DNA from: Promethearchaeota archaeon
GTDB taxonomy: Archaea; Asgardarchaeota; Thorarchaeia; Thorarchaeales; Thorarchaeaceae
Assembly: GCA_014728035.1 (NCBI GenBank)
Contig: WJMJ01000059.1
Span: 186,001 to 250,000, forward strand
Length of the DNA: 64,000 bases
Direction: 5' to 3'
Below are positions 11,986-58,658 of the stretch, one piece after another. How positions within the stretch are numbered: the first letter of the stretch is position 1; every line of letters begins with the position of its first letter. A model generated the notes under the pieces. That model made no database searches. It was not told the DNA's origin and saw only the letters and a program-made list of their open reading frames with translations. The translations under genes were made by a program, and so were the position numbers.

Positions 11986-12090
11986 GCGGTTGTTGTCTAG
12001 CCGTGTCAAACTTCTTGGCGCGGGGCGATGGGGCTAGGATTCCAGCCTTCCAAGCTGGTGGCCCGGGTTCAATTCCCGGCGACCGCACCA
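11986..12090 (+). tRNA. tRNA-Gly(UCC) with D-loop intron (~12001-12028)
   Basis: Acceptor GCGGTTG (11986) pairs with CGACCGC; anticodon arm CCAGC-CTTCCAA-GCTGG; T arm CCGGG-TTCAATT-CCCGG; encoded CCA. Works only if a ~28-nt D-loop intron is removed. Confidence 0.9.
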
Positions 12091-12102
12091 TCTTCATCTC
12101 TT

Positions 12103-12825
12103 TTAATTTCCGTCAGCTTTGTCAATGAGTGATTTTGCAGTGCGCATGTGATTCTCTAGTGCTGCTTTATCATATGATTGACTCATGAGAGCAAGTACTT
12201 GGATTACTCCTGTAAGATTGAAGCTTCTTTTCTTGAGCATCTCAATTAGTCTTCTATCTGCGGAAGGACAAAGGACAGTATAATGGATTATTTTATCGAA
12301 ACAGAGAACGAAACGTTTCCATAGGGGACTTCCTCTCTCTATGATATCTATTGCTTGGTTTCGATACTTCTGCCAATTTTTCTCAATTGCATTTAGCAAC
12401 TGGTCGAAAAACGGCTCAAATTCGTTATCATTCAGTGTTGTTCTCAGAGATGTGAACAGACACATTGGATAGTATGGCACCTCTCCACTGGGATTATAGA
12501 ACTCGTCTAAGCTAGCCACTCCCCAAGAAAAAGGAAAGAGCAAATAATAGCCTTGTGCCAAACCAACAATCTTCTTCTCTGACTGATTTTCTGCCCAGAT
12601 TGAGAATATGCGAGTGCTCCGTTTATCGATATCTGGTATTTCTTTTCCCCATGGATGAATATTAGAGAAATCTATGACATATGGCCCTGTTTCTTCAGTG
12701 ACATGAACCGTCCCTCTCTCAGTGGATTCATAAAGTAATTCAATTACACTTTCCGAGTCAAATTTTGCCATCTGATCAGATGTGGCTTGCTTCACTCTCC
12801 CATCATGAAAAATAATCTGCATCAT
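12103..12825 (-). CDS. Hypothetical protein (240 aa)
   Basis: Long ORF, no family recognised. Confidence 0.7.
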   Translation of the reverse strand: MMQIIFHDGRVKQATSDQMAKFDSESVIELLYESTERGTVHVTEETGPYVIDFSNIHPWGKEIPDIDKRSTRIFSIWAENQSEKKIVGLAQGYYLLFPFSWGVASLDEFYNPSGEVPYYPMCLFTSLRTTLNDNEFEPFFDQLLNAIEKNWQKYRNQAIDIIERGSPLWKRFVLCFDKIIHYTVLCPSADRRLIEMLKKRSFNLTGVIQVLALMSQSYDKAALENHMRTAKSLIDKADGN

Positions 12826-12977
12826 TTAACCTCTAGCTATGTTGTTTCATTCTTTTTGAATGTATAAATTCACTGTGATTCATATCAGTATCACAACCTT
12901 TTTTTCCAATCTACTTAGAACTTTTCTCTGATTCACTCAGTACCAATAATCTTAGACTCACTCTCAGAGGCTTATTC

Positions 12978-14987
12978 ATGGACTCCTTGAAACACAATGG
13001 CATTCTTGTACTTCGACCACCAGAACCACATGGTTTTGTAATAACAGTAAAAGGCAAAGAGATCACACTAGATAATCTACAGGAAGAGATGGCTATTGCT
13101 TGGGTTAAGAAGTTAGGAACTCCTTATGTTGAGGATCCCGTTTTCATTGAGAATTTCATGAGCGATTTTTCAAAGATGCTTGAACTTGATGATCCTCCCT
13201 CTACTGATGAAGTTGATTTCTCACAAGTAATCAAATATGTAGAATCCGAACGGGCTCGAAAAGAAGGGATGACCAAGGAAGAAAAGAAACAGGCAAGAGA
13301 AGAACGAAAAGTCATTCGTGAAGAGCTCAAAGAAAAATATGGCTATGTCTATGTTGATGGAGAACGAATGGAGCTTGCGAACTATCAGACTGAACCCTCT
13401 GGCATCTTCATGGGTAGAGGCGAACATCCTCTTCGTGGAAGATGGAAAGTTGGGGCTACTGAACAAGATATTACCCTCAATCTTAGTCCTGATGCAGAGA
13501 TTCCTCCTGGTGATTGGGGAGAAATCGTCTGGAAACCCGATTGTCTCTGGATTGCGAAATGGAAAGATGAACTGACTGGAAAAAACAAGTACATCTGGTT
13601 TCATGATAGCACCCCTATAAAGCAAGAGCGTGAAGAAGCAAAGTTTGACAAAGCTGTTAAATTTGAAAAAAGGCTGGATGAGGTCCGTGCACATATCTCA
13701 AAAGGACTTCTTTCCGATGATTCAAAAGTCCGTATGATTGCTGCGGCATGTTATCTTATTGACCGGCTCAGTCTTCGAGTTGGTGACGAAAAAGATCCAG
13801 ATGAAGCTGATACCGTTGGTGCAACTACTTTGCGAGTTGAACACTTAACATTCTTGGATGGTGTTGTAAAGTTCGATTTTTTGGGAAAAGATAGCGTTCC
13901 TTGGCATAAAGAGTTGGACATGCCTCCTGATGTTTATAGAGTATTCAGGGAGCTTTACGATCGTGCTCAAGAAAGGTTGCAGGATTTCAAAGCGAAGAAA
14001 CGCAAAAAGACCAAAGCTGATCCAAAAAAGATTGCACAAATATTTCCTCGTGTACGAAGCAGCCACGTAAACCAGTTTTTGAGTGAAGTAGACCCTGAAT
14101 TTTCTGCTAAAGTCTTTCGCACGAGTCGTGCTACTGCTATAATGCGTGAAGAACTAGCTTCTAGTGGTGTCAAGAAGACAGACCCTGACTTTGTAAAGAA
14201 ATCTGCAGCAAAACGAGCTAATCTTGAAGTAGCTCGGGTCATGAACCACACTAAGCAGGCTCCTAAAGGTTGGAAAAAAAGGGCAAAACGGTATGAAGAA
14301 CGATTGAAAAAAGCAGATACACGGATTGAAAAGGCCAAACTAAAGGTGAAAGAAGCCAAGAAGAAGTATAGAGCACGTAAGCGTAAGGAAGCCTCTACAC
14401 TAAAGAAACGAAAGGCTACCATAAAGAAAAAGGAAGAACTAGTTGAAAAATACAAAGGATACTATGATTCTTGGGTTGAAAAACGAAAGGGTGCTAAGGA
14501 AACTTGGGATCGAGCTCGCGAGCGAAAGCGAACTATTCGTAGTAGCACACGAAAATCAAATCGTACTAAACAAGAACGTCTCGAAGAGGCTCAAGAACGA
14601 ATCGATAGAACCCGTGGTACTCTAGACGAATATAGAACTAAGACCGACAAGGCGAGAAAACGTTACCAGAAGAGCAAGGAGTCTCTTGAGAAGAAAAAGG
14701 CGGCATTGGAGAAATGGAAAGAAAAATCAGCTGCTAGAATCGAGCGTGCAAAACAACGTGTCCAAAAAGAGAAAGAACGGGTCAAGAAAGCTGATTTGGC
14801 AAAGAAAAAAATAGAAATGGATTACGCACTTGCAAAAGAAGGTAAAACTCTCAACCTTGGAACATCTTTGAAATCCTATATTCATCCGCGTGTTGTGTAC
14901 AAATGGTGCCAGAAAGTAGATTATGATTGGAGAAAAATCTACTCTAAGGCGTTGGAACGGAAGTTCGATTGGGTCGAAAATTGCTGA
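12978..14987 (+). CDS. DNA topoisomerase IB, eukaryotic type
   Basis: N-terminal TopIB core (WKDELTGKNKYIWF...DRLSLRVGDEKDPDEADTVGATTLRVEH), catalytic-Tyr region LGTSLKSYIHPRVVYKWCQK, very long Lys/Glu-rich linker. Confidence 0.94.
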   Translation: MDSLKHNGILVLRPPEPHGFVITVKGKEITLDNLQEEMAIAWVKKLGTPYVEDPVFIENFMSDFSKMLELDDPPSTDEVDFSQVIKYVESERARKEGMTKEEKKQAREERKVIREELKEKYGYVYVDGERMELANYQTEPSGIFMGRGEHPLRGRWKVGATEQDITLNLSPDAEIPPGDWGEIVWKPDCLWIAKWKDELTGKNKYIWFHDSTPIKQEREEAKFDKAVKFEKRLDEVRAHISKGLLSDDSKVRMIAAACYLIDRLSLRVGDEKDPDEADTVGATTLRVEHLTFLDGVVKFDFLGKDSVPWHKELDMPPDVYRVFRELYDRAQERLQDFKAKKRKKTKADPKKIAQIFPRVRSSHVNQFLSEVDPEFSAKVFRTSRATAIMREELASSGVKKTDPDFVKKSAAKRANLEVARVMNHTKQAPKGWKKRAKRYEERLKKADTRIEKAKLKVKEAKKKYRARKRKEASTLKKRKATIKKKEELVEKYKGYYDSWVEKRKGAKETWDRARERKRTIRSSTRKSNRTKQERLEEAQERIDRTRGTLDEYRTKTDKARKRYQKSKESLEKKKAALEKWKEKSAARIERAKQRVQKEKERVKKADLAKKKIEMDYALAKEGKTLNLGTSLKSYIHPRVVYKWCQKVDYDWRKIYSKALERKFDWVENC

Positions 14988-15000
14988 TTGGTTGTATCTA

Positions 15001-15450
15001 CTATAGTTTTAGTGAGCTCATAGGATCGTTCATGGTCTTTCCCTGAAGAAGAAACTCCTTGATTCGTCGTTCGATCTCATCTCGAGTTTCTCTGAATACG
15101 GTAAGAATCTCCATATGGGAGCCTTGGAATGCAGCAGGGTCTTCTAATGACCAATGGTCTATTTTCTTTGCTCCTGGAAATGTCGGACATTCTTGTTTTG
15201 CATGGTCACAGACAGTTATCACTATATCAAATGTCTGACCTTCAAACTCACTCAATAATTTCGGTCGTAGTCCTGTAGTATCAATTTCTTTTTCTTTCAG
15301 CACTTCGATTGCGAATGGATTAACTTCTGATGCGGGATTGGTTCCTGCACTAAAGACCTCGTATTTTCCTTCTCCAAGCTTTCGGAGAAGAGCCTCAGAC
15401 ATCTGACTTCTTGCAGAATTTCCGGTACAAAGAAAGAGTACTCGTTTCAG
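15001..15450 (-). CDS. ArsC-type low-MW phosphatase/arsenate reductase (start apparently CUG)
   Basis: In-frame upstream extension LKRVLFLCTGNSARSQMSE carries the CX5R P-loop; track ORF 15001..15402 lacks it. Confidence 0.85.
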   Translation of the reverse strand: MKRVLFLCTGNSARSQMSEALLRKLGEGKYEVFSAGTNPASEVNPFAIEVLKEKEIDTTGLRPKLLSEFEGQTFDIVITVCDHAKQECPTFPGAKKIDHWSLEDPAAFQGSHMEILTVFRETRDEIERRIKEFLLQGKTMNDPMSSLKL

Positions 15451-15529
15451 TCATATCATCTCCTTTACTTAAATTCATCGAAAAACATCGATATTTAACT
15501 TGCCTGCATACGATTCATACGAAAAACTT

Positions 15530-15763
15530 TCATTCCTCCGGAATGAATTCTGCTAACACTTCTCTAAGACGATCTCTGAAGCCATCCCCGTCCTCTTTCA
15601 GGCGTTTCCTCACCATTTTCCATGTTGCCGCACAATTTGGATAATCTACACTTAGCCAGTAGTGGAGTTTTTTATCGATGGCACTTTTATTGTCTTTTGT
15701 TACTTCTATACCAAGGTCACCAAGCAGTTTCTTCATCCGTGAATTACTGAAATAACAGGTCAT
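15530..15763 (-). CDS. Conserved hypothetical protein
   Basis: 77 aa compact ORF, MTCYFSNSRMKKLLGDLGIEVTKDNK... Confidence 0.6.
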   Translation of the reverse strand: MTCYFSNSRMKKLLGDLGIEVTKDNKSAIDKKLHYWLSVDYPNCAATWKMVRKRLKEDGDGFRDRLREVLAEFIPEE

Positions 15764-16156
15764 CGAACATCAAGTTGTGGCAACCACACTGATTGATAAG
15801 TTTCTCTGCTATTTATGGTACTTTTAAATAATCAAAGCTAATCCCCGTCTATTATGCAGTATTTTTTTGCATATTATTGCTGTTGAGATACAATCTTGTC
15901 AGCTTTATCTTTTCTTATGTGTATCGGGCCCAATCGAGCTTTCGGTGAGTTGCGAATGGTTGAGGACGGTGAGAAGAATCATATCCTCTTGCTGGAGTAA
16001 TACTACCACTGTCTGTAGGACCTGGTTGGCTAGTTTTTAGCTATAATAGGCTCGTATTGCTGTTTGATTTGGCATCAATCCAATATGTATTGATTAATTC
16101 ATGGAGATTATTACGAATTTACCAAGCTAGTCTGGTTCATCACACAGGATTGTCTG

Positions 16157-16660
16157 CTAATCTCTCTTTTCAGAAAGAGCACGTAAAGATTCTAACACAT
16201 CCTCATCAACACAATGCAGTTTGATCATTTTCTCTGTATCAATATCATAGATTAGAATGTTATACCATGTTCCTGCATCTTCATGGTCTTCAGAGATTTT
16301 CAGAAATTCGTTAGTTTTCTTGTCAATAAAGACAGAGCGTGGAATTGCTTCAATAATCCCGGCCCCTCTAACCTCAATAATCCTCTGATTAGTGAGGTAA
16401 TATGAGGTTCTCCTGATATTGATGAATCTTGCAAGATAGTATATAATACCAGCTAGTAACAGGATTGAAATTCCAATCCCCCATCTCTCGCCCAATACAA
16501 TTGCAGAAATTGGAATCACAAACACGGATGCCAATGGTAAGCATCCTCCACAAAACATTGTTAGGAAAGGAGTTCCTGCCTTTTCGTGCCAAATTACTTG
16601 TTCATCCGTTTTTAATCCGTATTCTGGTGGATTAAAGCGTTCTCGCTCAACATATGTCAT
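16157..16660 (-). CDS. Membrane protein with bacterial PH-like domain
   Basis: Two hydrophobic segments then TSYYLTNQRIIEVRGAGIIEAIPRSVF. Confidence 0.65.
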   Translation of the reverse strand: MTYVERERFNPPEYGLKTDEQVIWHEKAGTPFLTMFCGGCLPLASVFVIPISAIVLGERWGIGISILLLAGIIYYLARFINIRRTSYYLTNQRIIEVRGAGIIEAIPRSVFIDKKTNEFLKISEDHEDAGTWYNILIYDIDTEKMIKLHCVDEDVLESLRALSEKRD

Positions 16661-16768
16661 GAGAAATCAAAAATTGATTGTTTCTCTTGGATTTGAATCT
16701 TCTTAGCTACCAGAAAATACACCAACTATATGGTTTCAAATCTCGTTGCCCTCTGGAATTAGAAGAAA

Positions 16769-16843
16769 TGGTGCGCTCGCCGGGACTTGAACCCGGGCCG
16801 GATCCGTGGCAGGGATCCATCATAGCCACTAGACAACGAGCGC
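16769..16843 (-). tRNA. tRNA-Gly(GCC), CCA encoded, intronless
   Basis: GCGCTCG...CGAGCGC A CCA; anticodon arm GGATCC-CTGCCAC-GGATCC; D loop AGTGGCTA. Confidence 0.95.
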
Positions 16844-16963
16844 GATAAAACCCACGTTTTATTGTGCGGGTTTCAGAGAGAGTCCACGCTGATAAACTTC
16901 AACTGTGAATCCTTTCTGACCTATTCCGCATAGCATGCGTTAAAAAGCTTATCGAAGTAGTAA

Positions 16964-18148
16964 ATGTCAAGAAGGAATAATTCAATCCAGAACATGGGAG
17001 CAAACAGAATGCAGCGTTCGGGACCACGAAGAATGCAATGGCTGGATATAGCAAAAGGGTTTGGAATAATAATTGTAATGATTATCCATTCCATCATGCC
17101 CGTGGTAAATGCCATCTCGACGCATCTGAGTAGTTTTGTGATTCCACTATTTTTCTTTATGGCTGGAATAACCTATAATAATGAAAAGCATCGGGGCCGA
17201 TTGACAAGATTTGCAAAGACTCGGGGAAAACGTTTCTTGATTCCTTACTTTATTATCTACATTTTTGTTCTTCTGGTTCTTGTTCCTGCTAGTATCTTTG
17301 TCGAGCTTCCTATTACAGCAAATGAGCTATTTTTCTGGTTCATTTATGGTGCTGGTCCTCCATACATGGCCCTTCACATCTGGTTTTTACCAGTACTGTT
17401 CTTTGGGCTTCTTCTCTTTGCTGTTGGAGATCGTATTGCAAATGGGAATGAGTTTGCGCTTTTTGGAATTTTCGTTCTCTTAATGCCCCTTGCAGCATAT
17501 TTTCTTTGGATTATGTTTCAGCCCGTGCTTATACCCTGGCACCTCAGTAGTATTATGTTGGCATCGATCTTCGTATATGTTGGAAATACATTCCGATATA
17601 AGCGGGGTTTGACCCCCCTCACCAAGGACAATACTATCCTTGATATTCTTGCAGTTGTTATCTTATCTGCTATTACCCTTTTAGTATCCCAATTGAACGG
17701 ATATGTGGATATGGCAATGGATAACTATGGGGTATCACCTTTCTTGTATCTCATAACCGGAATCACGGGCTCGATTCTGATTCTTGTCCTATCTCATCTT
17801 ATGACAAAAAGCTCTCACGCTAGCCGATTCATGCTTGCATATGGTAGTCAGTCTCAAGAGATTTATGAGAGTCATCCTGCAGGGTTTCCTCTTACTGCCG
17901 GGCTGTTTATACTTCTTGGATTTTCCATTGCTGATTTAGCTAATTTGCATCTAGTACTATGGCCAGCAAGGTTTATTGCTGCTATGCTTGTTGGTTACTA
18001 CTTTGTAAAATATGGTGTCAACAGAAGCAGAGTACTATCCTTCATCTTCAGAGGTGTTGCAAAGACTGAGGCCGGAAGAAAGACTAGTAAACTACCTGGT
18101 TCTGAGAAGCCCACTGAGCTGCCGTATTCGAAGCATTCGGAAAGTTGA
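16964..18148 (+). CDS. Acyltransferase-3-like integral membrane protein
   Basis: MQWLDIAKGFGIIIVMIIHS ... PLFFFMAGI; ~10 hydrophobic helices. Confidence 0.8.
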   Translation: MSRRNNSIQNMGANRMQRSGPRRMQWLDIAKGFGIIIVMIIHSIMPVVNAISTHLSSFVIPLFFFMAGITYNNEKHRGRLTRFAKTRGKRFLIPYFIIYIFVLLVLVPASIFVELPITANELFFWFIYGAGPPYMALHIWFLPVLFFGLLLFAVGDRIANGNEFALFGIFVLLMPLAAYFLWIMFQPVLIPWHLSSIMLASIFVYVGNTFRYKRGLTPLTKDNTILDILAVVILSAITLLVSQLNGYVDMAMDNYGVSPFLYLITGITGSILILVLSHLMTKSSHASRFMLAYGSQSQEIYESHPAGFPLTAGLFILLGFSIADLANLHLVLWPARFIAAMLVGYYFVKYGVNRSRVLSFIFRGVAKTEAGRKTSKLPGSEKPTELPYSKHSES

Positions 18149-19003: not shown

Positions 19004-19089
19004 TGTAGAAACCTCCTGTTTTCGTGGATAACATAGAGCAAAGCGCAGAGTTAATAGAAGTTGTTTTCTGTCGTGTTTATGAAAATGCA

Positions 19090-19806: not shown

Positions 19807-19849
19807 TATCCATTATCCTTATCTCACATGTAGTATATGTAGTTGAAAT

Positions 19850-23366: not shown

Positions 23367-23444
23367 TGGTGGGCCGAGCCGGATTCGAACCAGCGATCAC
23401 CGCACTGTCAATGCGGTATCATAGCCGAGCTAGACCATCGGCCC
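23367..23444 (-). tRNA. tRNA-Val(GAC), CCA encoded, intronless
   Basis: GGGCCGA...TCGGCCC A CCA; anticodon arm CCGCA-TTGACAG-TGCGG; T arm GCTGG-TTCGAAT-CCGGC. Confidence 0.95.
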
Positions 23445-23802: not shown

Positions 23803-24108
23803 ATGACATTGGATAGGATTCGTAATGATGACTCTACGGATGAACACATCAAAACGATTGAAGAAATGGGGTGTGTCGTTTCCTTAGAGAACCTTGGCGT
23901 ATTTGAAAAGATGATTCGAAACCATCTCCCCACTACTACTATCAATATTTCCCAGTGGACATTCTATGCTATCAGATCTCTCCTTTTGATTTGCAGAGAG
24001 CATAATCTTCGCATCCAAATGATATATGATGGCACTCATATCACCGTTGATTGTTACTTGGACAAACTTGGACATCAAGCAGTCCGTCCAGCAACGGTAC
24101 TGGACTGA
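23803..24108 (+). pseudogene. Hypothetical gene probably interrupted by the IS607-like element
   Basis: ORF runs into the element's right inverted end at 24058; plausible C-terminal remnant beyond left end at ~26628-26715. Confidence 0.55.
24058..24075 (-). repeat. Element terminal inverted repeat, right copy: ATGTCCAAGTTTGTCCAA (minus strand)
   Basis: Plus strand ttggacaaacttggacat. Confidence 0.85.
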
Positions 24109-26216
24109 TACACATCAATAATATTTCTTGCGGCATTGACATCCGCGTGTAACTCTGACCCACAGTGAGGACAATAGAAGTATTCCCCGCCGGGACGTTT
24201 GGTTCGAGCTCCCTGTTTCTCCACCCGCATCCCACGCTCTCCACAGGCATGACAATCCTGAGAGGTGTAGGCAGGATTTACAGTCCAGACCCCACCGTAC
24301 TTGTGACCGAGGGCTTGCCGCATGTAGGTAGTGGTGTCAAGGACCTTGGCCCAGAGATTGGTACTCAACTTCCAAGACAGCGTACCTGCACCCCATCCCT
24401 TGGGAGGCTTGTAGGACTTGAGGTTCTCAAAGTACAGGGTCTTGACCCCGTGCTCCTCACAGAACCACGTTGTACGATAGGCCACCAATCGAGCAATCTC
24501 GCGGTCTATCATCCGAACCTTCCGCCAGTGAGCATCCAACAGGCTTTCCTTCTTTTTCAGATGGCCGGGATGTTCCATATCAGGATGTTTTTGTTCCCAG
24601 TTGTTCCGCATCTTCCGGACCAGCGAGCTCAGCTTTCGAGTCTGGTCTCTGAGAAGTTCCCGTTTGTCTATCAGGTGGTCGAATCCCACCAGCTCGTCAA
24701 CATAACCACTTCCATTCTTTGTTGAAAGGACTATGGCGACACGGATTCCTCGGTCAGCACCAGCTCTCCTGCTGTAGGTGCGGTCACCGAGAATCGAGTC
24801 GATGAGCTCGGGATGGGGGGGTTGGAAAGGGATCTGCAAAGTCAACCTCTTCCTTCGTTTGACCAGTCTGGGAGGACCACATCGACGGGAATCGCGCAAT
24901 CGCTGTATCTTCTCTTGCAATTCAGCTATTGTTTCCTCGTCACGGTCACTCCGGTTCTTGAGTCTTGCTAGTTGGTAGGTTGCATGTTGTAGGTCGATGG
25001 TGTTTCTGAGTTGATGGTGCTGGTCTGCGTACTTTGCAGCTCGAAACCTGAGTTGCATGGCTCGGAGATGTTTTCCCTGTTTTTCAGCCCTCTCTGCTTT
25101 CTCCAAATCACGCTTGACAGCTCGGGGGAACCAGTCAAAGAAGCGAAGGGTCAGGTTTTTGGTCCTATAGGGATTATCTGGATGGGGCTTTCCCTCTACC
25201 GGAGCTGGGAGTTTGATGGAGAAGAATATCTCGTTCTCACGCTCTGTGTCCCACGAGTACCAATATCCCTGGCCTGGCATATTCTCTGTGGAACCAGAAA
25301 AGTCCGTTGCAAAGCTCTTCATCAGTGGAGTCTCGAAGGGATAGCCGTTGGTCAACCAGCCTTCGACCAGACTCTTGGCTCTCAGCATAACCCGACCATT
25401 CTCTTTGAGATACTTCTTTACTCTGTATCTCTGGGAACCTCGTGTCCGTAATGGTTCTCCTCGGTCAGTGAGGATGGTCTCGTCAAGAGTTCTACGAAGC
25501 TGTCGCAGAACAGAAAGGGCATAGTAGTAAACAGACCCCTTCTTCTCCACCGCTTCACACGCTTCCCGAATCTCTTTTATCAATCCAGGGGGCACTCGTT
25601 TTCTAGCTAGTAGCAGCTCTAACTTGTTTGAGTCTTCATGGACAATTTCCAAGGCTGTGGTGAGCAGTTGCCGTCTCATCCAATCTGAGAGGAGGATTCG
25701 TGCTGCTTGTTCTAAGGCATTGCGATACAATCGTTCGAAGGTATCTGCCTTTATCTCAGGATTATGCTGGTAAGAAAGGGTTGGTTCCTTTCGTAACAAG
25801 ACATATCCCTGCCCTCTATATCCTGCCAAGTCTGAACAAATCCGGTTAAACTCATACGAGTCTGCATAGACTCGATTCAGGACTTCATTCACCATCTCAA
25901 TAAATTTCTCAAAATACTTAGACACAATAGAGAGGTCAAGTTTGTTGATCTTCTGCCCAGTAGTTTCATGCAATCGTTGTTGGAACTGTTTTACTGCATC
26001 TCTCCTAAAGGAGGGGTCAGGCCTATACCCTTTCCCCTTCTTCTGGATGACTCGTTCAACAGAATTCAGTCGGAATTCAGATACAAGATATTTCAGTCCC
26101 GTATATTTCGCAGTGGTCGATGACTCCAATATAAGTTTGTCATCCATTGTCTGTTGCCTTGAAGAGTCCTTCTTTGGCTCCCGGAGATGACACCGGGCTT
26201 GTTTTTCAATCATCAA
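24075..26216 (-). CDS. tnpB: Large TnpB-like RuvC nuclease (713 aa)
   Basis: RuvC-I GADRGIRVAIVLS, RuvC-II LYFENLKSY, NPAYTSQDCHACG...CPHCG zinc finger, RuvC-III HADVNAARNI. Confidence 0.93.
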   Translation of the reverse strand: MMIEKQARCHLREPKKDSSRQQTMDDKLILESSTTAKYTGLKYLVSEFRLNSVERVIQKKGKGYRPDPSFRRDAVKQFQQRLHETTGQKINKLDLSIVSKYFEKFIEMVNEVLNRVYADSYEFNRICSDLAGYRGQGYVLLRKEPTLSYQHNPEIKADTFERLYRNALEQAARILLSDWMRRQLLTTALEIVHEDSNKLELLLARKRVPPGLIKEIREACEAVEKKGSVYYYALSVLRQLRRTLDETILTDRGEPLRTRGSQRYRVKKYLKENGRVMLRAKSLVEGWLTNGYPFETPLMKSFATDFSGSTENMPGQGYWYSWDTERENEIFFSIKLPAPVEGKPHPDNPYRTKNLTLRFFDWFPRAVKRDLEKAERAEKQGKHLRAMQLRFRAAKYADQHHQLRNTIDLQHATYQLARLKNRSDRDEETIAELQEKIQRLRDSRRCGPPRLVKRRKRLTLQIPFQPPHPELIDSILGDRTYSRRAGADRGIRVAIVLSTKNGSGYVDELVGFDHLIDKRELLRDQTRKLSSLVRKMRNNWEQKHPDMEHPGHLKKKESLLDAHWRKVRMIDREIARLVAYRTTWFCEEHGVKTLYFENLKSYKPPKGWGAGTLSWKLSTNLWAKVLDTTTYMRQALGHKYGGVWTVNPAYTSQDCHACGERGMRVEKQGARTKRPGGEYFYCPHCGSELHADVNAARNIIDVYQSSTVAGRTA

Positions 26217-26577
26217 CCTTGCACCTCTCTATCATTATATCCAATCCATATATTCTCCTAGAAGTGCAATAGAACCCAGACCAACTTCCTTGATTCTTTG
26301 GAAACTTTCGACTGTGCTGGCAGAGTTCCTCCACCTTCCGAGCCAGGTCTCCCGCCGCCTTCTGTCGGTGACTAGACACTCTTGCGTAGACTGCGGGATG
26401 AGCTGGAAGTAACTTCTCTTGGGCGGTTCCATGTTTGATCCGAGCTATCTCTCTGAGGGGGATACGACGATGATTACCAAGAGTTCGATAACATTCTATC
26501 AAGCCCTGTTTATCCCACCTTCTGATGGTCTTGGTGCACACTCCCAATCGAGCTGCTGCAATCGATACCGAAAACAT
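26206..26577 (-). pseudogene. tnpA: IS607-type TnpA (MerR-like HTH + serine recombinase N-terminus), truncated/frameshifted
   Basis: MFSVSIAAARLGVCTKTIRRWDKQGLIECYRTLGNHRRIP...VYARVSSHRQKAAGDLARKVEEL then unrelated sequence. Confidence 0.85.
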
Positions 26578-28847: not shown

Positions 28848-28954
28848 TGGTGCCGAGGGCCGGAGATTCAGACCCAGTGGAAGTCACCAAGTCATTTGAA
28901 CCAGCGACAACACGGTCTTCAGCCGTGCGATCTCCCTGGCTGATCTACCTCGGC
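28848..28954 (-). tRNA. tRNA-Phe(GAA) with 30-nt T-loop intron (28865-28894)
   Basis: GCCGAGG...CCTCGGC A CCA; anticodon arm CACGG-CTGAAGA-CCGTG; T stem GCTGG/CCGGC interrupted by intron. Confidence 0.95.
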
Positions 28955-36424: not shown

Positions 36425-37714
36425 GTGTACATATTATTGAATGATGACTCTTTACAACAATCTTCTGCTTCTATAGATACAATTGTGCGTAGTGCCCCTG
36501 ATAGTCTTCTCTCTGTGTGGTTTGACCAATATTTCTATTTCAAACGGAATGATCTGAGAAAAATTTTGTATAATGTATGTGATACACTCAATATTGAAGG
36601 CACATCATCTGAAAGAATAGAACAACTGAATACCTGCATGAGTAAACAAATTCCTAACAAGCACTTTCACAAATTGTCACTGAATAATGGAACCGTTCGC
36701 CTTTCGGGAATGATGTTATCCTTTTTACTTTCGGTTCTTGGGATTTCTGTGCGTGAGGTTCAAAAATTCGTTGTACGCGTATGTGGACGGAACGGTCATG
36801 GTGGTATCAAAAAGCCAAACATGATGGAGGGTGAAGAACTCGAAGTGTTCAGAGCTCGTTTTGCTGCAATCGTGAACAGTGATTGCTGGCTTGGTGAAGA
36901 TGGTAGATTACAGTATACTGAAGCTGATAGAGGTCGAATCAAAGTGGTTTTCGATATACTACAGATGATTGGGGATATCCCAATTGAACTGGTTCCGAAT
37001 CCTGTTAATCGCAGCGTGAAGATATGGTTACCAAAACCTCTTGGCCCCGCCTTTATTCGATGGGGCTTTACAACAGGTGACAAGTCTATTCAAAATGAAC
37101 GTTTAGTAGAAATAGTTAGAAATGGGTCATTGATCTCGCATAGAGGATATCTTGAAGAATTGATTTCTGAAGATGGCTGCTTTGAACAATTTGCTGGTTT
37201 CAAATGGAGTAGAACTATTGTTCTCAATTTGGGGATTTATGATACCAAATATAATCTCGAACCAAAGCTTTCCAATCAAGACTGTGAGCTTCTTCTATCA
37301 TTTGATAAAGCTCGAAAAGACATGAAGAAAAAGTGTACTATTGTATCAATACACCAGCTTGAGAAGGCAATTGAACATGATTTTGCCCAGGATGTATTGG
37401 AAATAGTTTCAACATCTCGTAGTAGTCTTCTGGATGATGAGGTATCTCTTGCTGAGCAATTTGGTATTAGAATTCTATCATACCCCGAATACATTACACT
37501 GTATGAGAGTGGACGAGTATCCGTCAAGTGGGTTGCAAAGACAGCAACCAAATTAGATGCCATCCGATGGGCTCTATTATTCCCTCCAAATGATCCGAGA
37601 AAAAGAAACAAAGTTAACCAATGGTTAAAAACTCAAAGAGATGAAACTTCAATTATTCGAGATCATCTTGAACGAGAAGGAATCCTAACGTATGGTGGAC
37701 CGGGCGTGATTTGA
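36425..37714 (+). CDS. LAGLIDADG-like (homing-endonuclease fold) protein
   Basis: FIRWGFTTGDKSIQNERL...GYLEELISEDGCFE resembles second LAGLIDADG repeat; IVNSDCWLGEDGRL first. Confidence 0.55.
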   Translation: MYILLNDDSLQQSSASIDTIVRSAPDSLLSVWFDQYFYFKRNDLRKILYNVCDTLNIEGTSSERIEQLNTCMSKQIPNKHFHKLSLNNGTVRLSGMMLSFLLSVLGISVREVQKFVVRVCGRNGHGGIKKPNMMEGEELEVFRARFAAIVNSDCWLGEDGRLQYTEADRGRIKVVFDILQMIGDIPIELVPNPVNRSVKIWLPKPLGPAFIRWGFTTGDKSIQNERLVEIVRNGSLISHRGYLEELISEDGCFEQFAGFKWSRTIVLNLGIYDTKYNLEPKLSNQDCELLLSFDKARKDMKKKCTIVSIHQLEKAIEHDFAQDVLEIVSTSRSSLLDDEVSLAEQFGIRILSYPEYITLYESGRVSVKWVAKTATKLDAIRWALLFPPNDPRKRNKVNQWLKTQRDETSIIRDHLEREGILTYGGPGVI

Positions 37715-37799
37715 ACACGCGACCTCCTCCATGCCAAGGAGGCGATCTTTCCCGACAGCCACATAATGCTGGACTGTTACCGAGCTGATCTACCGGCCC
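37693..37799 (-). tRNA. tRNA-Ala(GGC) with 30-nt D-loop intron (37749-37778)
   Basis: GGGCCGG...CCGGTCC A CCA; anticodon arm CCTCC-TTGGCAT-GGAGG; T arm GCGTG-TTCAAAT-CACGC; D stem GATC/GATC. Confidence 0.95.
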
Positions 37800-38260: not shown

Positions 38261-40318
38261 CTATATTTCAAGGTTAATCCTGTGCCAATATAATTCCACT
38301 AACCAGAAATCAATCCATTCGTTCATTGTCATTCCTCCTACATGACCCGTTTGTTTCCGAACCCATAAAATAATTGGAGAATCTGAAGATAGTCTACTTG
38401 CTTTCTCTTGAAGATGTGCCAATAATTTTGTTGTGTGCATCAAGTTTGCTCTTGCATCATTCTCTGCTACATAGAAGAGTGTTGGAGGATATTCTACAGA
38501 TTCTGATACGTTATGATATGGTGAATATGAATGGAGGTAATGAAACTCTTCAGCTTTCGATGGGTCTCCGTACTCATTAATCCAATATGAAGCGATTGGA
38601 TCTCTGGTGTATCTTATCATGTCTGCAAGTGGGGCTGAGGCATATACTGAACCAAAACACTGTGGTTCTTTCATCATTGCTGATAAGACCATCAGTCCAC
38701 CATTGCTTGACCCACGAATTCCAATCATCTCATGTGTCGAATATCCCTCATCTACAAACCATTTCGCTGCATGAATCACATCTTCTATGACATTCATTTT
38801 GTTCTCGAGCTTTCCATCTCTGTGCCATTTTTCGCCGAATTCACCTCCACCTCTAATATTAGCGATTGCATAGTAACCTCCTAATTCATTCCATAGCACA
38901 TGAAACGGTGAATAAGTTGGATGCTGTGAAATGCCGAAGCCTCCATAGACATGTATGATAGTAGGATGTGGGACACTGGTATCTAGGTCTCGGCGATACA
39001 TCAGAAACATCGGGATTTCTGTTCCGTCAAAGGATTGGAACCAGACCTGTTTGCACACATATTCTGTTTCAATCAAGCTTATTTTTGGCTTGAAGAATGA
39101 GCTTACTTTAGTTAAAGGCGAGTAAGCTTTGTATTGAATTGGTGAATAGAATGAATTCACCCCGAACATGATAATCTCTTCACCATCAGTGGAAAGATTG
39201 ACAATTTGTGTGATTTCTTCGTTACCAAATATAATCTCAGATTGATGTGTATTCAGGTCGAACTTTGTAAGGAGCGAGTGCACATTTTCTGTTTCAGCTA
39301 TAATCAGTGATTCGTTAAATGGAATAAGCAAATCAATTGGGTTCTTTGTTTTGTATGGTATTGTCTGCCGTTGTATTACGATATCTTCTGAAGGAGAAGG
39401 TAATGCATAATGACTGATTTGTTGTCCCGATTCTGGGGATTCATGGGCGATGTAGAGTGAATTTTGATACATATATGGGATAATTTTCGATTGATTCTCT
39501 AATAGTACAATTATTTCAGAGGCGCATTCAGGATGAAAGACAACCAGATCAATAGATACTCCTTGGTTTCTTGTGTATACCAGCCAGCTAGAATTTTCGC
39601 ATCCATATAATTCAACACGTTCGGGTTTTCTTCCCTCTCCTGATATCATACAGATATCGTCCTCATAATTCGTACCAATTCTATGGTAAAAGATACTGCC
39701 AGCAAAACGGCCATTTTCTTCAGGAGTGAATGAAGTGAAGGGATAGTAAAATCCAGAGTTGTCTTTATTCCAAATAATCGTTGCATATAGAAGATTCGGG
39801 ATGATGTCATCCAGATGTTCGGAATTGGCAACCTTGACTATACGAAGTGTCGATTTTTCACGTCCGCCTTTCGAGTAACCATAAGCGACATATGATCCAT
39901 CCCATGATGGAGAAAACCATTCTATCTTTATTGTTCCATCTGCAGCAATGCTAACTGGATTAACCAAAGTAATTCTATCTCCAGTAATTCCATCTTGATA
40001 ACAAAGACGCATCTGTGGATCATTCTGATATCTGAATAAATAGAAGAAACGATGGTCTTTTCTTCTTTTCCTAATAACAATCCCTTGTGTTGACATCGAG
40101 TTAAATAGCGATAATTCACTCAGTCGTTTTTGGATATCTTTTTGTTGTGAATACCCAGAGAGAACACGTTTGCCTAATTCATCCTGTTCTTCTAACCATT
40201 TTTGCACCTCTGGATCCTCATTGTTCTCTAACCACCTATAGGGGTCTCGAACCTTGACTCCATGAATTGTTTCGACTATATTATCACGACGCGTGCTCGG
40301 ATATCTTATCTTGCCCAT
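38261..40318 (-). CDS. Prolyl oligopeptidase (S9A)
   Basis: PYRWLENNEDPEVQKWLEEQ, GIRGSSNGGLMV, ANIRGGGEFGEKWH. Confidence 0.95.
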   Translation of the reverse strand: MGKIRYPSTRRDNIVETIHGVKVRDPYRWLENNEDPEVQKWLEEQDELGKRVLSGYSQQKDIQKRLSELSLFNSMSTQGIVIRKRRKDHRFFYLFRYQNDPQMRLCYQDGITGDRITLVNPVSIAADGTIKIEWFSPSWDGSYVAYGYSKGGREKSTLRIVKVANSEHLDDIIPNLLYATIIWNKDNSGFYYPFTSFTPEENGRFAGSIFYHRIGTNYEDDICMISGEGRKPERVELYGCENSSWLVYTRNQGVSIDLVVFHPECASEIIVLLENQSKIIPYMYQNSLYIAHESPESGQQISHYALPSPSEDIVIQRQTIPYKTKNPIDLLIPFNESLIIAETENVHSLLTKFDLNTHQSEIIFGNEEITQIVNLSTDGEEIIMFGVNSFYSPIQYKAYSPLTKVSSFFKPKISLIETEYVCKQVWFQSFDGTEIPMFLMYRRDLDTSVPHPTIIHVYGGFGISQHPTYSPFHVLWNELGGYYAIANIRGGGEFGEKWHRDGKLENKMNVIEDVIHAAKWFVDEGYSTHEMIGIRGSSNGGLMVLSAMMKEPQCFGSVYASAPLADMIRYTRDPIASYWINEYGDPSKAEEFHYLHSYSPYHNVSESVEYPPTLFYVAENDARANLMHTTKLLAHLQEKASRLSSDSPIILWVRKQTGHVGGMTMNEWIDFWLVELYWHRINLEI

Positions 40319-49976: not shown

Positions 49977-49984
49977 CTTGCAAT

Positions 49985-50590: not shown

Positions 50591-50686
50591 ACCTTACGTT
50601 TTCAGGCCACATTATGAACTATGTATACTGTTTCGGATAAAAAGTATCCGGCTTACGAAAGCTATTATTCCAGTACAGATTAAAAA

Positions 50687-51019: not shown

Positions 51020-51029
51020 GTTGTATGAT

Positions 51030-51335: not shown

Positions 51336-51413
51336 CTGTCTTGGCTATTGAGTTGGCCTTTTCAAAATAGTAGTTTGAGAGACCAAGTCCTGAAAAACCT
51401 CCGGGGTCAACAC

Positions 51414-52784: not shown

Positions 52785-52840
52785 TGGATACAGGCCCCAG
52801 AAAAAACAGCGGTGTTTCCTTCATAAAGGCAGTTGTTTGA

Positions 52841-54043
52841 CTAGAGGGGAATTCTTAGATAACGAATTGCCTTCAGTCCCGCAAGGAACGTTTTAGGGTT
52901 TCCTAGTAATTTTGCTATCACTCTTCCTTGCCTATCCATATCGCCCTCTTTTTTCACGGTGCTTACAAGTCCTAAATCAGCGGCATCACCAATTAGAGAA
53001 TCCAGTCCCTTATTGGAAAGTGAACCTATCAATTTCTGAACCAAATACATTAATCGTAAATCATTCATCAGAGATTTTCTCCATATTTTTTCAAACTTCT
53101 CTAGATGTGTCTGCCCTCCTGAGTCAGCTTCTAGGGATTGAGCAATGTGTTTCCCAGCCAATCTAGCTACTTTACCGCCCAAAATCACACCCCCTCCTGT
53201 AGTTGCTTTAACAATTCCTGCAGCATCTCCAACCACAACAAAATTACTTCCTATTGTTTTCTTGATTGGTTTTCCTACTAATACTATACCTCCAAAACCT
53301 CTTTCAACTGTGGCATTTCGAAGACGCTTCTTTAAAATCGGGTGATGCGAAATTGCAGATTTTAGTCTTATTTTGCTATAATCTCTAGCTGCCAGTCCAA
53401 CTCTAGCTCTTCTTTCTCCAAGTGGAATTAACCAACAGAAGAATCCTGGTGCTACACGATTGTCATAATACATTTCGACCAAGTCTTCATGAGCATCGAC
53501 ATTTTTCAACTCAAATTGATATGCTGGCATTTTGCTTTTTCTTGGGACTGAATAAAAACCGATAGATCTTGATATGTAACATCTTACACCCTCCGCATTA
53601 ACGACTCTTCTTGAAGATATCTTTTCTTTTGATTCCTTTTGCTTAATATGTGCAATCCACTCAGTTTCATTGTTAACAATCTTTGTGACTTGAGAACTGG
53701 TTTTAATTTGTACACCTGTATGATGTGCTTTATCAGCTAGCCATCTATCAAATGCAATACGATCCACAACAAAGGCTTCTCGCTTTCCTCTTTCGATTAA
53801 TATTGATTTTCCAGATGGTGAAAATATGCGTGCTCCTGATACATGATTCTGAATTACATCTTTAGGCAGCTTGAGACCGAGTTCTTGTATACCGGATGTA
53901 CTAAGGAGACCTGCACAATGGTCCGGTTTACCTATTGCTGGATGCTCTTCGAAAATCAATACTTTGTGTCCTCTACTTGCAGCATCGATTGAGGCAAGGA
54001 TACCAGCAGGTCCAGCACCAATGACTGTTACATCAGCTTTCAG
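52841..54043 (-). CDS. Geranylgeranyl reductase-type FAD flavoprotein (start apparently CUG)
   Basis: Extension LKADVTVIGAGPAGILASIDAASRGHKVLIFEEHPAIGKPDHCAGLLS supplies GxGxxG absent from track ORF. Confidence 0.88.
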   Translation of the reverse strand: MKADVTVIGAGPAGILASIDAASRGHKVLIFEEHPAIGKPDHCAGLLSTSGIQELGLKLPKDVIQNHVSGARIFSPSGKSILIERGKREAFVVDRIAFDRWLADKAHHTGVQIKTSSQVTKIVNNETEWIAHIKQKESKEKISSRRVVNAEGVRCYISRSIGFYSVPRKSKMPAYQFELKNVDAHEDLVEMYYDNRVAPGFFCWLIPLGERRARVGLAARDYSKIRLKSAISHHPILKKRLRNATVERGFGGIVLVGKPIKKTIGSNFVVVGDAAGIVKATTGGGVILGGKVARLAGKHIAQSLEADSGGQTHLEKFEKIWRKSLMNDLRLMYLVQKLIGSLSNKGLDSLIGDAADLGLVSTVKKEGDMDRQGRVIAKLLGNPKTFLAGLKAIRYLRIPL

Positions 54044-54124
54044 TTTTTACTCCTCAAATCCTCCTCGATAAGACCCTTTTTATCTGTCACCACTGGTGAA
54101 ATACTGTTTCTGGAGAATCACGTT

Positions 54125-54493
54125 ATGCCAAGACATCAATTTACGTACAAACAAGTCATTGTCGTACGAACTGATTTGGATATGAGTAAAGGTAAGACTG
54201 CTGTACAGGTTGCTCATGGGTCTTTGAGTGCGTCTGAGCGTGCACGTGGAAAAACAAATGATATTTGGAAAGCATGGTTTCGGGAGGGCCAGAAAAAGGT
54301 CGCACTAAAAGTTCGTTCTGAAGACGATTTAAAGACATTAATATCCCAAGCGATACAGGCTGACTTACCATATGCAATGATTAGAGATGCTGGAATGACC
54401 GAACTACCTCCTGGTACGGTTACGGTTATTGGTATAGGCCCGGCACTAGCAGAGAAAATAGACAAAATCACAGGCGATCTCAAGTTATTGTGA
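54125..54493 (+). CDS. pth2: Peptidyl-tRNA hydrolase Pth2
   Basis: QVIVVRTDLDMSKGKTAVQVAHGS, IRDAGMTELPPGTVTVIGIGP. Confidence 0.96.
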   Translation: MPRHQFTYKQVIVVRTDLDMSKGKTAVQVAHGSLSASERARGKTNDIWKAWFREGQKKVALKVRSEDDLKTLISQAIQADLPYAMIRDAGMTELPPGTVTVIGIGPALAEKIDKITGDLKLL

Positions 54494-55857
54494 GTGGAAA
54501 TACGTTGAAAGAAGCAAACCCCTTTGAAAAAACTCTAGGTATAGAACTATATTCTACTGATTTTCCAGGCATGAATGGTAGAATAAAAAGTTGTTATGAA
54601 GATTTCATAGTGACAGAAATTTCTCCCGAGGAACGTACACTTCGAATCAAGAATATGGAAACTCTCAATGATTGGCACGGTGCAATTGATACACTAATTG
54701 AAGGAGAACGAGACCGTTTTGTTCGATTTATTATGCAAAAAAGTGGATTGTCCACAATGGATGTCGCCCATATATTGGCATCCGAACTGAATATCCCTCG
54801 ACACTTGATTAATTATGCTGGATTGAAAGATAAACGAGCTGTCACAGCACAATTCATGTCGATTCCTGCAAGCAGTGCTGAAATGCTGCCCAAATGCAGA
54901 TTATCCAGAATTCTCATTAGAGAAATGGAGTATACTCATCATCCAGTAAATATTGGCGACCTATGGGGAAACCGTTTTAAAATCCATTTTAGAGAAATTG
55001 ATTCTCCAATCGAAGAAGCTATGGAGCATGCTAGTTCTCTTTCTACTACGCCTCTCTTAAACTACTTTGGTGTTCAACGATTTGGCGTCACTCGTCCTTT
55101 CACACATCGTGTTGGAAAGGCTTTGATAAATAGAGATTACGAAAAAGCTGTAATGATAATGTTGACTGAAACCAGCAAGTACGAGCCTGTTGAACTAACT
55201 GAAACTCGAACAAAACTTGCAGAAGACTTCACCCCCTCAGAGGAATTGCTAGATGTGTTTCCCAAGAGCCAAAGATATGAGCGTAGGATTATCAAGCATT
55301 TAATCAAACATCCTAATGATTTCAAACGTGCAATATTGAAAATTCCACCACGGATTTTGACAATCTTCATCCATGCATATCAGTCATACTTGTTCAATCG
55401 GTTAATTAGTCAACGTGCAAGAAATGAAATGCCTTTGGAATTTCCTATTGTTGGCGATTTCTTGATACGGCTCGATACTACTCACTCAGGACGTGACTCG
55501 TGGATTTTTGTAACAGAAAGAAAACTTGAATCATGTATGGATCTTATCGCATCTGGTGAATATGGATTAGCAATGCCTATTCCTGGATATGCAACTAAAA
55601 CACCCCCGTCTGAACAAACTGATATGCTTAAGACTCTCCTGAAATCTGAACAGATTAGCCTGATTGCTTTTCGCAATCCCGAACATCGCTCATTAAATTC
55701 TCCGGGTGGTTTGCATCTATTATCTGTTCACCCACTTCAATTGAATGTCGAAGGAGTAGATAATCAACTTATTCTTGAGTTTTCACTTCGAAAAGGCTCT
55801 TATGCAACAATTGTTATGCGTGAACTGATGAAAAATCATCCAATTAATCGAGTATAG
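54490..55857 (+). CDS. truD: tRNA pseudouridine synthase TruD
   Basis: YAGLKDKRAVTAQ, LLNYFGVQRFG; overlaps pth2 by 4 nt, GTG start. Confidence 0.96.
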   Translation: MSGNTLKEANPFEKTLGIELYSTDFPGMNGRIKSCYEDFIVTEISPEERTLRIKNMETLNDWHGAIDTLIEGERDRFVRFIMQKSGLSTMDVAHILASELNIPRHLINYAGLKDKRAVTAQFMSIPASSAEMLPKCRLSRILIREMEYTHHPVNIGDLWGNRFKIHFREIDSPIEEAMEHASSLSTTPLLNYFGVQRFGVTRPFTHRVGKALINRDYEKAVMIMLTETSKYEPVELTETRTKLAEDFTPSEELLDVFPKSQRYERRIIKHLIKHPNDFKRAILKIPPRILTIFIHAYQSYLFNRLISQRARNEMPLEFPIVGDFLIRLDTTHSGRDSWIFVTERKLESCMDLIASGEYGLAMPIPGYATKTPPSEQTDMLKTLLKSEQISLIAFRNPEHRSLNSPGGLHLLSVHPLQLNVEGVDNQLILEFSLRKGSYATIVMRELMKNHPINRV

Positions 55858-55861
55858 ATTC

Positions 55862-56443
55862 TCAAAACCGTCTTCGGCTGGCAAACTCTTTCATTTTTTC
55901 ATCAAAAGCATCTTCAGGCTTCTCATCCGTTTGCACTCTTTCGTCTTGATACTGAAATATCACAGATTGTCCCATTATAGCGGATACAATCTTTCGCAAG
56001 TCGGATTTGGTGTAATCAATTCTATCTCTATCTTCAGTCCTGAGCATAACGATACTCTCTTTCTCACCGTTTGGAAGATAGAGGCTATTAACACCCACTT
56101 CAACTGCGGGATAGATTAATTCGCGAACAAGAGATCTCAGCTTGACCGGGCCTTCAAAAATCATAACCGATCCATATAGATTTTCCATTTCGCCAATTAG
56201 GTCAATCTGGTCTTTAAGTTGCTCAGCCTGTTTTTTCTTCACAATAATGATTATTTTACCTGCTGTCTTGATAGCTCTTCTGAAGGATAAATCTTCAATC
56301 TCTGGATAATCTTCAACTCTCTCTAATATCCATTTTGAGAAATCTATATCGAATTGAGTAATCTCTCCTCTATCTAATTTCCCTTGGCAGTTTGGACACA
56401 ACATATCCGTTTCGAGATCAAACTTACAGACTGGTAAACGCAT
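55862..56443 (-). CDS. Archaeal NusA/KH-related zinc-containing protein
   Basis: LPVCKFDLETDMLCPNCQGKLDRGEI. Confidence 0.7.
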   Translation of the reverse strand: MRLPVCKFDLETDMLCPNCQGKLDRGEITQFDIDFSKWILERVEDYPEIEDLSFRRAIKTAGKIIIIVKKKQAEQLKDQIDLIGEMENLYGSVMIFEGPVKLRSLVRELIYPAVEVGVNSLYLPNGEKESIVMLRTEDRDRIDYTKSDLRKIVSAIMGQSVIFQYQDERVQTDEKPEDAFDEKMKEFASRRRF

Positions 56444-56512
56444 TTCAAAGGCCTCGTTGAACGATTGTTCCTATTTCTGTTGGTTCGTTCAATTAACCAT
56501 ATGAAATTTGTG

Positions 56513-56887
56513 TTAGTCAACTTTTGCCAATGTAATATCTATGGTACTTACGTTCAAATCGCTACCCTTGTCTGTTTTGACAGTAGTAGTGTCGATTATT
56601 ATCTCCTTTACTTCGAGGTCTGTAATGAATCTATGTCGTGTTATTTCTGCCACATCAACAGCACGACTTATCAGTCGTCCTCTTGCCTTGATGACTACTT
56701 CTTCCGCTCCTTTGTTGAATAGTGTCACACACGCTAGAACATAACTCATTACGTTCTTGTTACCTACAAGTATTACGTTGCCATTTCTGTCGTCTTTGTC
56801 TGATTTTGATGTATCTTTGTTTTCTGTTTCTGGTGTCACCAATAGACTCTCCGCACACTCGCTCGCAATCTCTCTCCGGTCTAACAC
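56513..56887 (-). CDS. alba: Alba-family nucleic-acid-binding protein
   Basis: [45 protein letters not shown]. Confidence 0.93.
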
Positions 56888-57028
56888 AAAGATAGAATTA
56901 TCAGATATAGATTTCGCTTAATATATTGTATTATCTTTTTATTAATTGGAGAAATACGTTTTAGCTTTCTGTCATTCAGTAATGTTTTTGTGGTTTATGA
57001 TTGGGTTTCTTGGTGGATGTATTATTAG

Positions 57029-58297
57029 ATGGCACAAATCACCTTTTTGGGATCAACCAGGAATATAGGACGTGCTGGATTTTTCATAGAAGAAAATGAT
57101 GAAAGCATGCTAGTAGATTATGGTGTACAGTTTGGAAATCCTCCTACTTTTCCTGACATGATACCTATCGATGGTCTACAGGGTGTAGCTCTTACACATG
57201 CTCATCTCGACCACTCGGGTGGTCTTCCTATTGTTCTATCTAAGGACCGAGGAATTTCATTATTTTGTACGCCTGCAAGTCGAGACCTCACGATTCTATT
57301 ACTTCGTGATATGATCAAAATATCACGAGGTCGATTACCATATGATAGAAAAGATGTTACAAAGGTTCGTCGCCAATGCCAAGCGACTCCATATGAAAAT
57401 ACTGTGCCTCTAGGGCGACATTTTGAAATGACCCTTTTCAATGCAGGACATATCCCTGGCAGTGCAATGGTTTCTGTACGTGTTGATGGGAAACGCATCT
57501 TATTCACTGGCGATTTTAATGCTACAGAATCACAGCTTACACCCGGAGCAAGAGTCAATCTTCCAAAACATGATGTTGTGGTAACCGAAAGCACCTATGC
57601 TCAACGAATCAATCCCGATCGTGAAGAGATTGAAAAATCATTGATTGATGCCACTATTGAAACACTCGAACGTGGTGGAACTGTATTGATTCCTGCATTT
57701 GCAGTTGGGCGCAGCCAAGAAATAATGTGTATATTGGAGAAACACAAATTACCGAATAAATATCCGATTTATGTTGACGGAATGGCTAGGAAAGTGAATG
57801 ATATTCTTGTTCGTCATCCTGAATATCTTCAGAGTCCTCAGGCATTTTCACGAGCTGTATCTCGAACTCATGAGATTCGTGATAATAGGGATCGAAATCG
57901 CGCAATGAATGCTGGTGGTGTAATTATCTCTCCAGCTGGAATGCTTAAGGGTGGTGCATCTCATGTGTATTTCAAACGTCTGCATGATGACCCTCGAAAT
58001 TCAATTATTTTAGTAAGTTTTCAAATTCCTGGAACTCCTGGTGCTGAATTACTCGCTACTAAAACAGTAGAAGTCGGAAGAAAACGATTCGATGTCAAAG
58101 CTGATGTGCAACAGTTCCATTTATCCTCTCACTCGGATTCTAAGGGTCTAGTCAAAATGCTCACAAATATTCCTGGAAATCCAGAGTTCTATTTAGTTCA
58201 CGGAGAATCTGAATCCTGCGACATCCTTGCTGAAAATCTGCAGAAAATGGGACGAAAAGCAACAGTGCCCGAGAAAAACGAGGCTTTTGAGGTTTAG
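57029..58297 (+). CDS. MBL/beta-CASP nuclease (aCPSF2-like)
   Basis: THAHLDHSGGLPIV, FTGDFN, SSHSDSKGLVKML; no KH domains. Confidence 0.93.
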   Translation: MAQITFLGSTRNIGRAGFFIEENDESMLVDYGVQFGNPPTFPDMIPIDGLQGVALTHAHLDHSGGLPIVLSKDRGISLFCTPASRDLTILLLRDMIKISRGRLPYDRKDVTKVRRQCQATPYENTVPLGRHFEMTLFNAGHIPGSAMVSVRVDGKRILFTGDFNATESQLTPGARVNLPKHDVVVTESTYAQRINPDREEIEKSLIDATIETLERGGTVLIPAFAVGRSQEIMCILEKHKLPNKYPIYVDGMARKVNDILVRHPEYLQSPQAFSRAVSRTHEIRDNRDRNRAMNAGGVIISPAGMLKGGASHVYFKRLHDDPRNSIILVSFQIPGTPGAELLATKTVEVGRKRFDVKADVQQFHLSSHSDSKGLVKMLTNIPGNPEFYLVHGESESCDILAENLQKMGRKATVPEKNEAFEV

Positions 58298-58509
58298 ACC
58301 TCTTCAGCCTTGGTTCGAGCTTCAATAATTTGGCACTTGACTTGTTGAAGCACTTCTTCGGCTTTCTGTGGTTCAAGGACCAGAGTATAAAGATATCTTG
58401 CTGTGCGAAGTTTGAGCTTTACTTGATCGCTTGTCCTTCTCACACGACATTCGACGGCATCCTCCGTCATTTCAAGGAACTTGTCAACATCATAGATTTG
58501 TTTTGGCAT
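58294..58509 (-). CDS. rpl38e: Ribosomal protein L38e
   Basis: KLKLRTARYLYTLVLEPQKAEEV matches eL38 core RYLYTLV. Confidence 0.85.
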   Translation of the reverse strand: MPKQIYDVDKFLEMTEDAVECRVRRTSDQVKLKLRTARYLYTLVLEPQKAEEVLQQVKCQIIEARTKAEEV

Positions 58510-58553
58510 GATTCGGGCCTCTTGTATTGATTAGCGTCTATGACCAGGATTAG

Positions 58554-58658
58554 TGGGCCGGGCCGGAGCTTCAGTCACGGTGTGATTCACCCAGACTTTT
58601 GAACCAGCGATCCCCGCCGTGTGAAGGCGGTATCATAGCCGAGCTAGACCACCGGCCC
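58554..58658 (-). tRNA. tRNA-Val(CAC) with 30-nt T-loop intron (58568-58597), CCA not encoded
   Basis: GGGCCGG...CCGGCCC A; anticodon arm CCGCC-TTCACAC-GGCGG; T stem GCTGG/CCGGC interrupted. Confidence 0.95.

Follow-up and report, generated by a model that had tools for sequence, protein, structure and literature searches.

Evidence for a standardised 30-nt design of non-canonical tRNA introns in Thorarchaeia

Among known archaea, the Asgard lineage is the one most closely related to eukaryotes, and both its tRNA introns and the enzymes that may remove them can be set beside several described systems. In the Thermoproteales (Pyrobaculum and others; Sugahara 2008, Fujishima 2010), bulge-helix-bulge (BHB) introns are described at many sites other than 37/38, sometimes several per gene, with signs of copying between tRNAs. 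High tRNA intron density is already published for Asgard archaea as well: in Atabeyarchaeia and Freyarchaeia (Valentin-Alvarado 2024, PMC11291895), introns occur in 92-95% of the tRNA genes and are often non-canonical and often several per gene. The tRNAscan-SE 2.0 paper gives 0.21 introns per gene in archaea and 0.84 in Thermoproteales (PMC8450103). On the enzyme side, the crenarchaeal (alpha-beta)2 EndA of Aeropyrum pernix (PDB 3P1Z) has the catalytic Y/H/K and the lysine of the Crenarchaea-specific loop (CSL) in its alpha subunit, while the product of a second gene has no catalytic histidine; broad specificity is reportedly conferred by the CSL lysine (PMC6379350; PMC12397907), and the CSL is described in a review as conserved in crenarchaeal enzymes (PMC6379350). 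A first-pass annotation of the DNA studied here had pointed to the dense non-canonical introns of Thermoproteales and could not say whether they were reported for the lineage at hand; the precedent exists for the other Asgard archaea cited above, and the literature searched held no intron-density report for Thorarchaeia, no report of the CSL in Asgard enzymes and no report of a 30-nt tRNA intron standard.

The window, a stretch of 64,000 nt (G000:C25:186001-250000, where G000 is the host genome and C25 the host contig), belongs to a Thorarchaeia (Asgard) archaeon whose 4.33-Mb MAG comprises 173 contigs and is 97.9% complete and 8.5% contaminated. The assignment rests on eIF6, encoded in the window (8253-8918): seven of its eight named matches are from Thorarchaeota, the best at 87%, and the remaining one is labelled simply 'archaeon'. 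ARAGORN reported two of the six window tRNAs and Rfam, at its gathering threshold, three, with tRNA-Val(CAC) missed by RF00005 in the whole-genome search. A BHB-aware scanner was therefore written, which excises BHB introns of 12 to about 100 nt at any site and has no length preference. It returned exactly six tRNA genes in the window, four of them with introns (Table 1), and no gene in 128 kb of shuffled window sequence.

Table 1. tRNA genes and introns of the window (G001, a genome of the same genus; G020, another genome)
Feature	Position	Strand	Remarks
tRNA-Gly(TCC) with intron	11986..12087	+	CCA encoded at 12088-12090; orthologue with the same intron in G001
Gly-TCC D-loop BHB intron, 28 nt (15/16)	12001..12028	+	hairpin CCGTGTCAA-ACTTC-TTGGCGCGG
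Gly-TCC intron, alternative register, 30 nt	12000-12029	+	equally good
tRNA-Gly(GCC), intronless	16772..16843	-	
tRNA-Val(GAC), intronless	23370..23444	-	
tRNA-Phe(GAA) with intron	28851..28954	-	intronless same-locus orthologue in G001
Phe T-loop intron, 30 nt (59/60), strict hBHBh'	28865..28894	-	hairpin GACTTGGTG-ACTTC-CACTGGGTC, then TGAA pairing with T-loop TTCA
tRNA-Ala(GGC) with intron	37696..37799	-	intron site the same in G001, G020 and others
Ala-GGC D-loop intron, 30 nt, HBh' type	37749..37778	-	CTCG/CGGG central helix
tRNA-Val(CAC) with intron	58554..58658	-	
Val-CAC T-loop intron, 30 nt (59/60), strict hBHBh'	58568..58597	-	hairpin GTCTGGGTG-AATCA-CACCGTGAC, then TGAA

Among the neighbours of these genes, a eukaryote-type topoisomerase IB gene with three Pfam domains (12978-14987) adjoins the Gly-TCC tRNA. 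Just downstream of tRNA-Val(GAC), a locally higher-GC stretch (24075-26577) encodes a TnpB-like protein, which has a Cas12f1-like TNB domain, and beside it a MerR/HTH-type protein resembling a truncated IS607 serine recombinase. The Val(CAC) tRNA has no encoded CCA, the discriminator being followed by CTA (58551-58553), and differs in this from the other three intron-bearing tRNAs of the window.

All six tRNAs and the four non-canonical introns lie where the first-pass annotation had placed them, and the lengths it gave (three of 30 nt and one of about 28 nt) were recovered, at 30 nt each for Phe-GAA, Ala-GGC and Val-CAC and 28 or 30 nt for Gly-TCC. The same is true of its two introns at one T-loop site with a TTCA/TGAA helix (Phe and Val-CAC), its two D-loop introns (Gly-TCC and Ala-GGC) and the ACTTC pentaloop common to the Gly and Phe inner hairpins. 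Each of the four introns displays a 4-bp central helix with all four pairs standard and two 3-nt bulges on opposite strands, and its excision leaves a near-perfect tRNA cloverleaf. The description of these motifs as relaxed BHBs suits Ala-GGC and Gly-TCC, in which the outer helix is not contiguous, but not Phe and Val-CAC, in which the 5-bp T-stem next to the 3' bulge provides the outer helix of a strict hBHBh' motif. Registers are ambiguous for Gly-TCC, as listed, and for Leu-CAG (24, 30 or 32 nt). The TTCA/TGAA helix was also considered as evidence of a common origin of the Phe and Val-CAC introns and rejected, because it is dictated by geometry, TTCA being the conserved T-loop itself.

The splice junctions can be read from a close relative. 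In G001 the matching locus has similar flanking sequence, and its tRNA-Phe gene is intronless and identical to the spliced window gene (74/74 nt). This fixes the splice sites and shows that an intron was gained or lost within one genus; Thr-GGT follows the same pattern in G001, here for a 37/38 intron. That the four window genes are pseudogenes or assembly errors, as a draft MAG with 8.5% contamination might lead one to suspect, is extremely improbable: the cloverleaves are perfect after excision, each gene is the sole copy of its anticodon found on host contigs, and shared introns occur in a second genome.

A broad-specificity endonuclease had been invoked in the first-pass annotation, and the sequence of the host enzyme supports it. 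The host possesses two EndA genes, on contigs C151 and C51, and is of the two-gene alpha+beta type; most of 59 Asgard genomes likewise have two EndA genes. The alpha subunit aligns to A. pernix EndA, its nearest solved structure, with an E value of 7e-42; all 30 Asgard alphas aligned, the host's included, keep the catalytic triad of Tyr, His and Lys as well as the CSL lysine (K44 of A. pernix), and the host's beta has no histidine at the catalytic site. This is the arrangement of the crenarchaeal enzymes, with the difference that the CSL is found here across Asgard archaea. An RtcB gene is also present. Given the contamination of the MAG, we note that the contigs encoding beta and RtcB also carry host tRNAs and that alpha matches other Thorarchaeia. 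On these grounds, the window introns are predicted to be removed by EndA and the exons to be joined by RtcB. After transcription of the pre-tRNA, the 30-nt hairpin would fold with a 4-nt exon clamp, an (alpha-beta)2 heterotetramer carrying the CSL lysine would cut both bulges after their second nucleotide, and RtcB would then seal the exons.

The tRNAs of the genome were surveyed by combining whole-genome Rfam matches with a scan of 1.12 Mb and with two-intron and relaxed readings, the two-intron genes (Met, Asn, Ala-TGC) being read partly by hand; tRNA arrays on contigs C26, C161, C122 and C74 are excluded from the host count as viral or foreign. The survey gave 40 archaeal tRNA genes, 23 with introns and 17 without, and 26 introns, or about 0.65 per gene. 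Twelve of these lie at 37/38 and 14 are non-canonical, located at 10/11, in the D loop, at 43/44, in the V region and at 53/54, 57/58 and 59/60. The four introns of the window are thus not isolated, unrelated cases, and the lack of anticodon-loop introns, correctly noted for these four, does not extend to the genome. The window was also considered as a special intron cluster, a possibility rejected on the counts of non-canonical introns (4/6 vs 14/40, p 0.10); it is typical of its genome. Introns reach 57% of tRNA genes in this host, against the higher share in Atabeyarchaeia and Freyarchaeia, for which we found no length or loop rule in the available part of the report. Two hand readings deserve mention. 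The tRNA-Ala(TGC) gene (G000:C61:28050-28185) has two apparent 30-nt introns, one in the anticodon loop and one in the D loop at the same site as in Ala-GGC, and a CAT-anticodon tRNA gene (G000:C9:218563-218729), with long inserts in G001, G004 and G005 too, has an apparent anticodon-loop intron of about 62 nt and a V-region intron of about 30 nt.

The non-canonical introns share a preferred length. In the host genome 9 of the 14 are exactly 30 nt long, or 10 with the alternative Gly-TCC reading. The family sample is an uneven one of 222 distinct tRNA genes from about 43 genomes, collected via four pre-tRNA queries with fuller sets from three to four genomes; in it, the 52 non-canonical introns include 26 of exactly 30 nt and 6 of 29 nt, and the T-arm introns follow the mode more closely still (20 and 4 of 26, respectively). 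The 30-nt unit is found alike in the D loop, at 53/54, at 56-60, in the V region and at 37/38. It coexists with exceptions of 16-19, 24, 37-38 and 65 nt. In G010 and G009, which represent other Asgard families, the same scanner returned lengths of 17-35 nt and 18-39 nt, respectively, and the 30-nt share differs between the family and G010 (Fisher p = 0.001); the length rule is absent from another Asgard family.

Inside the 30 nt, the layout is regular. Across 39 introns of this length, each of nine stem positions is paired in 30 to 39 cases and shows five or six pair types, which amounts to strong covariation of a 9-bp helix. The pentaloop has a central U in 30 of 33 introns, an A in first place in 18 and a C in last place in 22; with one intron kept per tRNA and site, the central U persists in 17 of 20, and within-loop shuffles never reach the observed loop information (p < 0.0002). 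The standard intron can accordingly be modelled as 1 nt, a 9-bp helix strand, a 5-nt loop (commonly A/C-N-U-N-C), the other helix strand, 4 nt that would pair with the upstream exon, and 2 nt, adding up to 30. Could these be ordinary non-canonical BHB introns whose equal length reflects coincidence or search bias? The sites 53/54, 56/57 and 59/60 are known in archaea, above all in Crenarchaeota (PMC4090602), and introns are abundant in other Asgard classes (PMC11291895). However, the other lengths given by the same scanner in G010 and G009, the Fisher test and the loop bias speak against this explanation, which we consider improbable. We conclude that these are very probably archaeal BHB introns of a standardised design in Thorarchaeia, the proposed cutting and joining machinery included. 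The standard 30-nt architecture appears to be new. Beyond belonging to an Asgard archaeon, these introns appear to differ from those of Thermoproteales in their strong preference for 30 nt, their 9-bp stem and their biased pentaloop, and in a whole-intron similarity between tRNAs that is weak here, Phe and Val excepted.

Comparison between relatives bears on the age of these introns. Across the family, Phe introns occur at 59/60, 58/59 and 56/57, in the D arm and in the V region; those in the T arm always measure 29-30 nt, and 16 genomes have no Phe intron. Since the same-site Phe intron occurs in other genera, G001 most likely lost its copy. By contrast, both genomes of this genus have the Gly-TCC intron, which the Gly-TCC genes of 22 other genomes lack, and the Val-CAC 59/60 intron is confined to this genus, the other genomes comprising 10 with an intronless gene and two with introns elsewhere. 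From this distribution, both look like recent gains that arrived in the standard format. New introns may thus enter in this format through copying of an existing intron or T-arm, through selection, or through both.

The uniform format could be the mark of copying or of selection, or of a mixture of the two, and we do not decide between them. If a single ancestral intron had given rise to the 30-nt introns by moving from one tRNA gene to another, whether through reverse splicing or through recombination and gene conversion of T-arms, the 4 nt pairing with the exon would have adapted afterwards. This has close to an even chance of being correct. It is favoured by the Phe and Val-CAC introns, which together with their T-arms match at 80% over 51 nt (E 1.8e-6), by the genus-confined Val-CAC and Gly-TCC introns, and by a precedent in Thermoproteales, where intron transposition on a large scale is described (Fujishima 2010, according to PMC4090602). 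On the other hand, among 66 hairpin pairs compared between introns one was convincing, that of Phe and Val-CAC (15/23, p 0.002), and this hairpin match by itself fails correction for the 66 pairs. Most stems are little more alike than pair-preserving shuffles (z 3.1 in the host genome, 2.0 for all introns), and no copy of the nine introns searched for was found outside tRNAs in 1.13 Mb of the genome. The intron-spreading process suggested by the first-pass annotation draws support from the genus-confined gains and the Phe/Val-CAC match but is not proven, the stems of the other introns being weakly similar.

Selection for the format, which we rate just as highly, would require that the 9-bp stem and the A/C-N-U-N-C pentaloop are needed either by a protein, be it EndA, RtcB or some other, or by the intron itself once excised and possibly circular, with introns arising by several routes and converging. 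Loop similarity between introns is strong (z 6.6-10.7) and exceeds that of the stems (z 10.7 vs 2.0), and the same format occurs at unrelated sites, including the three T-arm sites of Phe introns in different genera. Yet no partner is known, the standard introns occur alongside others of 16-19 and 65 nt, and archaeal EndA reads bulges, with no known sensitivity to intron length. We tentatively propose, as a possibility somewhat short of even, either one family of 30-nt elements spreading to any tRNA site that offers 4-bp pairing or a format held by a putative partner of the loop.

These introns offer a setting in which the same tRNA occurs with and without its intron, on identical exons, in close relatives, making intron gain open to direct study, and the apparent recent gains of one standard size bear on how tRNA introns are acquired. 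A CSL endonuclease throughout Asgard archaea bears on the passage from the broad archaeal enzyme to the eukaryotic one. In practical terms, Rfam and ARAGORN miss or misread tRNAs with such introns.

Two contigs of the bin excluded from the host count carry tRNA arrays of their own. The 26-kb contig C26 (11289-25040) has about 20 intronless tRNA genes, with Asp(GTC) in triplicate and Trp in duplicate, as well as HNH endonuclease and thymidylate-kinase-like genes; it probably derives from a phage or another foreign source and was binned with the host genome. The virus-like contig C161 encodes a family B DNA polymerase with two apparent inteins, a dUTPase and a phrog_850 RNA-binding protein, and its array (38329-39409) includes His, Ser, Asp, several Asn and Thr. 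In the tRNA-Asp(GTC) of this contig the T loop is interrupted by a 29-nt BHB intron whose stem spans 9 bp, which suggests that C161 may be a virus of an archaeon sharing the same splicing system.
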